From positions 1 to 39,270 of IMG/VR virus record IMGVR_UViG_3300023223_001311: a stretch of DNA of 39,270 nt, one strand, 5' to 3'. Positions within the stretch are counted from its first letter, which is position 1. Each line of letters opens with the position of its first letter. This DNA comes from a virus. The translations under genes were made by a program, and so were the position numbers. Positions 28,533 to 32,236 of this stretch are shown here, piece by piece. Under the pieces are notes generated by a model. That model searched no databases. It worked only from the letters and a program-made list of their open reading frames with translations, and was not told the DNA's origin.

Positions 28533-29291
28533 TCACTTTGCGCAAATGAGACATGGGCGCCGATCTCTTTTCTCTAGCATAGCACGCCGGTCAAAAAGTT
28601 GCCCTTGGCGGTCATACTCGTCGGCAAGCTGTGTCAACGGGATGCGGTGTATTGACCATGTAGCATTGTATCCGTCCGTACTGGTCTCGCTCGCCAGTTG
28701 TTCCTCGGCGACCGCTTGCGCAAACAACGCTGGGTGAAAAAGGCGCAGATCCATCCATTCTTGGTCACGCTGCCAGGGGCACATGTAGCATCCTCCGGTG
28801 CTGCGCCACGCGTAGAAGTCTGGTACGGGGAAAGGTAAGGTCGTTAAGAGTGATTCCACCTCTTCAAGGCCGAGCCCGTCTTGGCGGAGCGGATACGCAT
28901 ATTCGATACCCGTGGTCAGACCATAGTTGCCTCGGCTCTCATTTTCATCGGCACGAATGCCGATATAGACTATACAGGGGAGGGAGGTTTTACAGTAGCG
29001 CTCGAACGGCCGAATTTTTAGGTGCGAGGTACACCACCGGCTCGCCTTGCCTGGCAGAAAATAGCCCCAATGTGGCAGGTAGTAATCAAAGCCTCGTCCG
29101 TAGTCATTCAATCGGTGTATCGGGGCCTGTAAGTACTCGGCAAGGTTATCAAGGAACCGATAGAGGTCTGGAAATTCTCGGTCCGTATCACAAAACACAT
29201 ATTCGTAAGGGATAGCGGCCCGTGTGGCATGCAGATGCAAAGCCATCGCAGTAGAGTCCTTCCCGCCTGAGAGAGCTAAAACATGACGCAT
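28533..29291 (-). CDS. PAPS-reductase-like PP-loop protein
   Basis: 252 aa from ATG 29291 with AAAGGAG upstream. The PP-loop ALSGGKDSTAMALHL (6-20) binds ATP, adenylyl or a nucleotide. FCDTDREFPDLYRFLD follows, then KASRWCTSHLKIRPFERY, IGIRADENESR, and Cys pairs GGCYMCPW and CLICAK. The family covers PAPS reductase, DndC-type DNA phosphorothioation enzymes and many phage members of unproven role; the Cys residues could hold an Fe-S cluster. No dnd partners are nearby. Sulphur transfer, nucleotide modification or tRNA/DNA modification are open options. Confidence 0.75.
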   Translation of the reverse strand: MRHVLALSGGKDSTAMALHLHATRAAIPYEYVFCDTDREFPDLYRFLDNLAEYLQAPIHRLNDYGRGFDYYLPHWGYFLPGKASRWCTSHLKIRPFERYCKTSLPCIVYIGIRADENESRGNYGLTTGIEYAYPLRQDGLGLEEVESLLTTLPFPVPDFYAWRSTGGCYMCPWQRDQEWMDLRLFHPALFAQAVAEEQLASETSTDGYNATWSIHRIPLTQLADEYDRQGQLFDRRAMLEKRDRRPCLICAK

Positions 29292-30763: not shown

Positions 30764-30991
30764 TTATTCGACGCGGGCAGTATGCAACGCCTGGTTGATT
30801 TCCTCCTGTGAGAGTCCATGCGCTTGACGTAAATGATGGGCAGTATCTCTGCGAGGTGCATTGATAAGCGGGTGGCGCACTCTGGGCTTTGTGCAGGTAT
30901 GGCATGTCCATCTGGGATCTTTCCTGCCTTCTGGCCCCCGTGTGCGAGATAGATCCTGGTCGGGCCGTGGGGTGCGATCGACGTCCATCAT
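30764..30991 (-). CDS. 75-aa C2H2-like zinc protein
   Basis: ATG 30991 (or 30988) with AAGGAG 7 nt upstream. The basic N-terminus (DRTPRPDQDLSRTRGPEGRK) is followed by WTCHTCTKPRVRHPLINAPR, then DTAHHLRQAHG: two Cys and His ligands of a zinc-finger type that often marks phage transcription-related small proteins. The helical end is LSQEEINQALH. The upstream spacer is the structured element A. Confidence 0.6.
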   Translation of the reverse strand: MMDVDRTPRPDQDLSRTRGPEGRKDPRWTCHTCTKPRVRHPLINAPRRDTAHHLRQAHGLSQEEINQALHTARVE

Positions 30992-31015: not shown

Positions 31016-31102
31016 TCTCCGGGCTGGCAACCGACACCTGCATACCTTGTGCGTGCAGGCGGCCGCATTACACCCCGCATCGGCGGGGCTGCTCTGCGTT
31101 TA
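31016..31102 (-). ncRNA. Structured intercistronic element, copy A
   Basis: On the minus strand it starts at the stop codon (TAAACGCAGAGCA), has hairpin CCCCGC-CGAT-GCGGGG, then GTAATGCGGCCGCC, a CCTGCA...TGCAGG hairpin, then CGGTTGCCAGCCCGGAGA just before the SD region. Flanks match copy B (31429-31509) while the first hairpin has a different sequence. CGCA and TGCG around the hairpin can also pair. Confidence 0.6.
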
Positions 31103-31402
31103 GACTAGCGATTGATACGGCATGGGCTGATCATGGTACCTATCACCGGCGGCATAGGCGTCGATGAGGTGCCAGGCCGAGTCTGTTGAATCCATAGGGA
31201 GAAAGCCGCCATTATGATGCTGGATCTGATAGGCAATCATTCGCTGCAGCTCGTCGGGGGTGCCCTGCAACCGGTCCAGGCAGGTGTGCAAAGACACTTC
31301 CATCTCATCAGCTATTACCAGATGCCGTGTACGATTTGTGGTGCGTTTCCGTATAAGAATCTGACGGGTTTCATCAGTGGCTTGTAGAAATTCATCGATC
31401 AT
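31100..31402 (-). CDS. Hypothetical 100-aa protein
   Basis: ATG 31402 with GAGGAG 8 nt upstream. Helical N-terminal half (MIDEFLQATDETRQILIRKR, then LVIADEMEVSLHTCLDRLQG); GTPDELQRMI resembles GTNDELDKCF in the next-upstream gene, so the two may be distant paralogues. Flanked by structured elements A and B. Function not recognised. Confidence 0.6.
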   Translation of the reverse strand: MIDEFLQATDETRQILIRKRTTNRTRHLVIADEMEVSLHTCLDRLQGTPDELQRMIAYQIQHHNGGFLPMDSTDSAWHLIDAYAAGDRYHDQPMPYQSLV

Positions 31403-31428
31403 CGTCGCATCTCCTCAGTGTTTCGGAT

Positions 31429-31509
31429 CTCTCCGGGCTGGCAACCGTCACCTGCGTGATGCGGGCGGCCGCATTACAGCGCTGTGTAGCGCTGTGCTCT
31501 GCGTTATCC
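31429..31509 (-). ncRNA. Structured intercistronic element, copy B
   Basis: Minus strand from the stop: TAACGCAGAGCA, hairpin ACAGCGCT-ACAC-AGCGCTGT, GTAATGCGGCCGCC, a shorter second arm, GCAGGTG, CGGTTGCCAGCCCGGAGA. Compared with copy A the conserved blocks are the same but the hairpin stem is completely different and still fully paired. Confidence 0.6.
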
Positions 31510-31722
31510 TTCAAGTGGACAGTACGCATCAAAGCATTTGTCCAACTCGTCATTTGTCCCATTGAGTCGTTCAAAGGCAAACCGAATGGCACTCTCGTTA
31601 ACATCGGCGCATGGGTTTTCACAAATGGCCTCAACTTGCCCTTGTACTGCCTCGCCCAAATCATTCCATTTGCGGGAAAAATCGAGCAGATCGGTCCAAT
31701 GGACGGCCTTGAGGGTATTCAT
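31504..31722 (-). CDS. Hypothetical 72-aa protein
   Basis: ATG 31722 with AAGGAG upstream (cacgaaggagataccATG). Helical and acidic: WTDLLDFSRKWNDLGEAVQG, then RFAFERLNGTNDELDKCFDA. First gene of the long minus operon and so expressed early, next to the strongest minus promoter. No family recognised. Confidence 0.6.
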   Translation of the reverse strand: MNTLKAVHWTDLLDFSRKWNDLGEAVQGQVEAICENPCADVNESAIRFAFERLNGTNDELDKCFDAYCPLEG

Positions 31723-31886
31723 GGTATCTCCTTCGTGTTTCGTGTGGTATCTCATCAGCACCTGGCTACCATGCCAGGGGACACTGTCCATGAGGCCCCT
31801 GCCCCTTGCCCTTTTCTCTTCCCGTGCCTGGTTTCGAGGGTACCGGCTCCGGTGGATGGCGCCTGCGGTGCGCTGTCATCCTTGAT
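31723..31886 (-). promoter_or_regulatory. Structured leader of the minus-strand operon
   Basis: About 165 nt between promoter and first gene with no coding frame. Contains CCTGGC-ATGGTA-GCCAGG and GGACA-G-TGTCC hairpins, and a duplicated CACGAAGGAGATACC/GAGATACCACACGAA segment around the SD. Confidence 0.4.
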
Positions 31887-31892
31887 TTACTA

Positions 31893-31922
31893 AGTATACA
31901 TCGATGTAGAATAACATGTCAA
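31893..31922 (-). promoter_or_regulatory. Strong sigma70-like promoter of the long minus operon
   Basis: Minus strand: TTGACA (31922-31917), 18-nt spacer, TATACT (31898-31893). Both hexamers are near consensus. Confidence 0.7.
31897..31908. promoter_or_regulatory. Candidate operator palindrome
   Basis: TACATCGATGTA, a perfect 12-bp palindrome between the -10 and -35 of the minus promoter. Related ATGTAGAA occurs at 31904 and 31927, suggesting repeated half-sites for the adjacent XRE repressor. Confidence 0.5.
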
Positions 31923-31996: not shown

Positions 31997-32236
31997 ATGA
32001 GAGCACGCAATCCATCGCCAATTGGCGCGGCAGTCCTTGCATATCGGCATAAGGTCGGCCAAACACAAATCCAGTTTGGGGCGCTCGTCCAGTTGACGGG
32101 CAATACGATTGCCCGTATTGAAACTGGGGATATTCAAGAGATCCGCACGGGGGCGTTGTGCCGCATTGCGGACGTGTGCGGGTATTCGACAGATTATTTA
32201 CTGGGGCGCGAGGGGGGCGGACATGCAAGAGAATAA
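31997..32236 (+). CDS. XRE/cI-like HTH repressor
   Basis: 79 aa; ATG 31997 with AAAAAGGGGAAC upstream. IGAAVLAYRHKVGQTQIQFG (9-28), then ALVQLTGNTIARIETGDIQE, is a helix-turn-helix of the XRE/lambda-cI class, ending at YSTDYLLGRE, a typical family close. No peptidase domain, so it acts as a short dimeric repressor. Divergent from the long minus operon, whose promoter holds a palindrome. The next gene overlaps its 3' end. Confidence 0.85.
   Translation: MRARNPSPIGAAVLAYRHKVGQTQIQFGALVQLTGNTIARIETGDIQEIRTGALCRIADVCGYSTDYLLGREGGGHARE

Follow-up and report, generated by a model that had tools for sequence, protein, structure and literature searches.

Predicted type-P5 twister ribozymes at stop codons in a phage operon with a hammerhead-like leader element

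Cleavage by nucleolytic ribozymes yields a 2',3'-cyclic phosphate and a 5'-OH, and to our knowledge the biological role of the twister ribozymes of bacteria and phages is unsettled. The closest described arrangement is that of clustered hammerheads that flank single prophage genes and were suggested to divide long phage transcripts into mRNAs of operons or of single genes (Perreault et al. 2011, PMC3088659). These hammerheads cleave in vitro and, in the case of one array, in E. coli (PMC3088659). Twisters and hammerheads have also been found to associate with phage genes and with other ribozymes (PMC4604425). In our own scans, a 206-kb phage contig was seen to carry a pistol ribozyme (L041:5527-5607, minus strand, 63.2 bits) at a distance of about 1.2 kb from two Twister-P5 copies, all on one strand.

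The window, by which we mean the whole stretch of DNA that was analysed, is an uncultured virus contig of 39,270 bases. The phage encodes a portal protein, a P22-type coat protein and a RecT-like protein; a phosphoadenosine phosphosulfate reductase-like gene is also present (28536-29291, minus strand). The operon studied here runs leftward and comprises the following elements, listed together with a divergent gene:

31893..31922, minus strand: promoter-like site of the leftward operon, TTGACA-18-TATACT, 11 of 12 consensus matches
31504..31722, minus strand: gene 1, 72 aa, orphan; SD AGGAG ahead of the ATG; no match in PHROG or Pfam
31100..31402, minus strand: gene 2, 100 aa, orphan, between the two twisters described below; no relatives found
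30764..30991, minus strand: gene 3, 75 aa, orphan; no match in PHROG or Pfam
30711-30304, minus strand: pentapeptide-repeat gene (LQGANLQGA...), after gene 3 in leftward order
31997-32236, plus strand: helix-turn-helix regulator gene, divergent from the operon

On the minus strand, the order from 31922 leftward is promoter-like site, leader, genes 1, 2 and 3, and pentapeptide-repeat gene. No convincing terminator was found between the operon genes. The palindrome TACATCGATGTA (31908-31897), which lies in the promoter spacer and covers the first two -10 bases, is a possible operator for the divergent helix-turn-helix regulator. The spacer 3' of gene 3 is without a ribozyme and contains a perfect hairpin, GGGGAGGC-CACC-GCCTCCCC (30755-30736), without a U tract. 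A long open repeat frame (GQPARGFPAR..., 30571-29597, minus strand) overlaps the pentapeptide-repeat gene in another frame. Among viral contigs and phage records there were no relatives of the neighbouring proteins, and no nucleotide relatives of the region were found.

A first-pass annotation, made from the letters of this DNA, had noticed that the spacers behind genes 1 and 2 share three blocks in the same order on the minus strand, between which each copy carries an unrelated hairpin. All three blocks are present where it had placed them, and both hairpins, ACAGCGCT-ACAC-AGCGCTGT (8 bp) and CCCCGC-CGAT-GCGGGG (6 bp), are perfectly paired. Its statement that the element could not be assigned to a known RNA family was wrong, as the Twister-P5 model of Rfam (RF02684) matches both spacers:

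31504..31506, minus strand: TAA stop of gene 1, 1 nt ahead of the GCAGAG of copy A
31433..31503, minus strand: Twister-P5 ribozyme copy A; RF02684 37.7 bits, E 2.7e-5; own model R2 41.1 bits, E 4e-8
31475..31476, minus strand: predicted cut U31476^A31475 of copy A
31100..31102, minus strand: TAA stop of gene 2, 2 nt ahead of the GCAGAG of copy B
31019..31098, minus strand: Twister-P5 ribozyme copy B, with a longer P3 hairpin; RF02684 28.8 bits, E 0.005 (6 kb); R2 32.0 bits, E 6e-6
31069..31070, minus strand: predicted cut U31070^A31069 of copy B

Copy A just passes the RF02684 gathering threshold of 37.6 bits and is the sole match in the window at the curated threshold. Copy B, found at a permissive threshold, is under the gathering score and spans the whole model; it is filed as Twister-P5 because of its homology with copy A and its match to R2. 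The latter is a covariance model built from 32 type-P5 twisters that were retrieved by pattern, with the window left out. It found both copies and nothing else of note in the window, and RF02684 detected copies A and B and nothing else of the Twister family. Since the curated model matches both spacers, and the window-free model does so with the low E-values listed above, their resemblance is not due to chance. On sequence grounds, both spacers are type-P5 twister self-cleaving ribozymes of the known class RF02684, for which cleavage is predicted.

The shared blocks correspond to parts of the ribozyme. Block 1, CGCAGAG, is one P2 strand plus GAG; block 2, GUAAUGCGGC, holds the scissile U^A together with the second P2 strand and that of T1; and block 3, CGGUUGCCAGCCCGG, is P4 with the active loop L4. 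The CA after the GAG pairs with UG in L4 to give the pseudoknot T2 (CA/TG, intact in both window copies), and the hairpin that is swapped between the copies is stem P1. P1, P2 and P4 are paired in both copies, while T1 (GC with GC) was assigned by eye only. An unconstrained minimum free energy (MFE) fold of copy B recovered P2, P1, P3 and P4. All positions of the optional P3 pair in copy B (CGCCTGCA/TGCAGGTG, one G-U), whereas that of copy A (CGCCCGC/GCAGGTG) contains a single C-A mismatch without compensation. Both copies have U^AAUGCGGC and GCCC with its preceding A. The putative cuts were placed by mapping the consensus scissile U-A (PMC5408937) on the Rfam alignment. A cut inside the stop codon (TAACGC block) was ruled out, as the alignment assigns the site to UAAUGC of block 2. 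Support was also lacking for a P5 helix flanking the element (GGAU/AUCC in copy A, GUCU/AGAU in copy B), the mean best stem across relatives being 2.67 versus 2.60 with shuffled partners.

In both window copies, L4 reads CCAGCCC instead of the usual CAAGCCC, which puts a C at a near-invariant adenine, as in about 3 of 285 relatives; no same-lineage twister copies with CGGTTGCCAGCCC were found. This C could make the ribozymes slow or dead. The two elements might then be descendants of an active twister that were inactivated by the A-to-C exchange and kept as structured spacers, a scenario to which the scores of 28.8 and 37.7 bits (39-66 in the relatives scanned) and the P3 mismatch of copy A would also be suited. 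However, both copies have kept P1, P2, P4 and T2 despite unrelated P1 sequences, the G of L4 and the scissile U-A are likewise intact, and a few twisters that are otherwise normal have this C too (P1-type L018 and L047, P5-type L244). We thus consider decay to be distinctly unlikely.

Relatives were collected by pattern-based scans of sequence collections, and all copy counts are lower bounds. Retrieval made use of the family's conserved letters, so that the conservation of those letters is circular. The relatives were also filtered for a pairable T2 (212 of 249 passed); this filter affects neither P1 pairing nor the variety of pair types in T2. In the ungapped alignment of 32 relatives, standard pairs occupied 94.5% of the pair cells, T2 pairing being partly a result of the filter, versus 70.5% after shuffling, and the covariation score was 0.585 versus 0.147. 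When partners were slid by one column, pairing fell to 35-38%. Changes on both sides were seen at all seven P1 pairs and at both T2 pairs, the latter occurring as UA, GC, CG and AU. A P1 with at least four contiguous pairs was present in 176 of 210 copies, which together had 128 distinct stems; when the stem halves were swapped among copies, the proportion was 13%. These data support the view, first put forward in the earlier annotation on the basis of the two window copies, that the elements are under selection for RNA structure.

To relate the ribozymes to genes, 205 P5 twisters with non-redundant upstream sequence, taken from viral contigs and from bacterial and archaeal genomes, were analysed, with genes approximated by ORFs of at least 60 codons. 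Of 104 stop triplets at offsets 1-2, 64 closed an open frame of this length, versus 7% for triplets 40-139 nt upstream (p 1e-46). A second class has its stop at -9 (GCA GAG TGA; 25 of 88, p 1e-9). Here, the frame ends at the TGA of GCAGAGUGA, with one TAA among the 25, and the stop falls within the first 9 nt of the ribozyme. The stop of the upstream gene lay within -12 to +6 nt of the ribozyme in 123 of the 205 copies (101 of 150 in viral contigs versus 22 of 55 in genomes), and few upstream frames ran on into the catalytic core. The stops near twisters include TGA, TAG and TAA; since TGA and TAG are also used, the peak is not merely the ribozyme's own A-rich edge. The tight packing may be a mere effect of compact phage genomes. 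However, the concentration of stops at exact offsets, together with the class at -9, suggests that compactness is probably not the whole explanation.

In several contigs, single ORFs exactly fill the space between successive twisters. The window is one of them: its 100-aa ORF starts 32 nt after one twister and stops 2 nt before the next. Ribozyme-ORF-ribozyme units of this kind, whose stop codon is fused to the ribozyme that follows, are found repeatedly with different genes, and the window genes are orphans. Both observations would be expected if the ribozymes were conserved boundaries for the swapping of single-gene cassettes, with cleavage being secondary. We regard this as highly improbable, because the stems diverge in sequence while their pairing is kept, which makes them poor sites for homologous recombination, and because selection acts on RNA structure.

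The leader of the operon contains a further element, which the first-pass annotation had overlooked:

31735..31784, minus strand: type III hammerhead, predicted cut C31780^C31779; 40.8 bits, E 2e-11 with a model that leaves out the window; every modelled pair standard

Its sequence (31784-31735) is GUGUC^CCCUGGC-AUGGUA-GCCAGGUG-CUGAUGA-G-AUACCACA-C-GAA-ACAC. The core consists of CUGAUGA, GAA-A, the pair U31781-A31738 (A15.1-U16.1) and the cleavage triplet GUC (NUH). Stem I has 7 bp with one bulge and stem III has 4 bp, and both covary in relatives. Stem II is a single G-C pair, and loop I forms a pseudoknot (UGGUA : UACCA) that is nearly invariant among the relatives. The model was built from seven of these, without the window. 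When the same loop I / stem II pseudoknot was searched for, at least 29 contigs were obtained, more than a dozen of them with complete hammerheads that differ in stems I and III (L302, L305, L306, L310-L313, L317-L319, L321-L324 and L326). As the pseudoknot letters and CTGATGAG belonged to the search pattern, the independent evidence for a hammerhead is stems I and III and the NUH site. Rfam Hammerhead_II gives the window element 18.8 bits versus a gathering score of 37, and none of the related hammerheads in 12 loci scanned reaches the gathering score. Judged by its core and predicted pairing, 31784-31735 is hammerhead-like, with predicted cleavage, and lies outside the thresholds of curated models; it represents an under-described type III subtype of phages that these models miss. 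The twister model had no match in the hammerhead loci, so the two classes are not, as a rule, found together.

In most relatives of this hammerhead, stem III adjoins or overlaps the SD of the next gene. Downstream of P5 twisters, the start codon is mostly at most 60 nt from the ribozyme, and an SD-like motif was found in 136 of 193 cases. It is therefore conceivable that cutting or refolding controls access to the next SD and not the length or stability of the mRNA. In the window, however, the SD itself is left unpaired by the twisters and the hammerhead, and no ligand-binding domain was seen, so that we hold a purely translational role to be unlikely. Tuning of translation, one of three functions that had been suggested for the spacers, is possible mainly as a consequence of cutting; for another, the binding of a phage protein, we found no support.

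The P1 permutation of the twister is also common in phage contigs. There, the hairpin before the cut is separate from the ribozyme, whereas in the P5 type it is P1 itself that terminates the upstream product. The mean MFE of the last 40 nt of the upstream product was -15.1 for the P5 type (shuffled: -9.7) and -13.5 for the P1 type (shuffled: -8.0). In 60 of 80 P1-type copies, a hairpin of at least 5 bp was located at most 8 nt from the cut, versus 10 expected by shuffling. Viral P1-type twisters with a GC-rich hairpin a few nucleotides before the scissile bond include L008, L013, L030 and L036. For both permutations, the upstream product is thus predicted to terminate in a strong 3' hairpin. 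The env22 twister is able to cleave without P1 (PMC5408937). Since the P1 of the P5 type also joins the ribozyme halves, its conservation is not proof of a role at the 3' end.

We propose that the type-P5 twisters act as operon punctuation which splits the leftward transcript into gene-sized mRNAs, and assign this reading a probability of roughly 80%. Family, fold, covariation, operon position and abutment on stop codons are observed, and from these we infer cleavage, end chemistry and an effect on stability. The promoter would fire leftward, and the nascent RNA would fold a hammerhead in the leader and twisters between genes 1 and 2 and between genes 2 and 3. Each ribozyme would then cut itself, yielding the leader and the mRNAs of gene 1, gene 2 and gene 3 with what follows it. 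As P1 is closed 5' of the cut in the P5 permutation, each upstream messenger would retain its stop codon and terminate in a GC-rich hairpin that carries a 2',3'-cyclic phosphate, while each downstream mRNA would start with a 5'-OH and retain its own SD. The stop codon at the ribozyme edge would let ribosomes exit ahead of the catalytic core. The likely benefit would be that defined, nuclease-resistant ends uncouple the lifetime and expression of neighbouring genes. That both permutations appear to end the upstream messenger in a hairpin, though P1 is dispensable in env22, favours punctuation with mRNA 3'-end formation. Processing of the polycistron, the third of the suggested functions, is hence the option that the Twister-P5 family implies, with the cutting itself predicted.

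More tentatively, and at somewhat less than even odds, phages might use twisters widely as a system of mRNA 3'-end formation, in which the ribozymes are fused to stop codons and both permutations leave a terminal hairpin. If so, each small gene would obtain a stable and separately regulated mRNA without a terminator. The stop-codon position and the 3' hairpin offer a handle on the role of twisters, as they predict specific RNA ends and effects on stability.

The window copies agree with Twister-P5 (RF02684) in element order, conserved blocks, T2, the scissile U-A and the circular permutation with P1 closed. They differ in having CCAG and not CAAG in L4 and a P3 hairpin that is absent in most relatives, and in that copy B is under the Rfam threshold. 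The idea of punctuation is not new, as it was put forward for the clustered phage hammerheads in 2011. As in those clusters (PMC3088659), several self-cleaving ribozymes lie between consecutive phage genes, with cleavage predicted in the window; however, the window mixes twisters and a hammerhead in one operon, and its twister edges coincide with stops. The hammerhead resembles the pseudoknot example with a one-base-pair stem II in PMC3088659 (Fig. 4), in which a loop I pseudoknot likewise carries the tertiary contact. That example is of type II, with the pseudoknot partner 3' of stem II, whereas the one in the window is of type III, has its partner in the loop of stem II, immediately ahead of the SD, and remains under Rfam thresholds. 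The open-access literature that was searched, which did not include Roth 2014 and Weinberg 2015, held no report of the stop-codon fusion or of the shared 3' hairpin. Taken together, the locus presents an RNA class that is already known, in a type of setting that is known as well, plus an under-described hammerhead subtype and two testable regularities.
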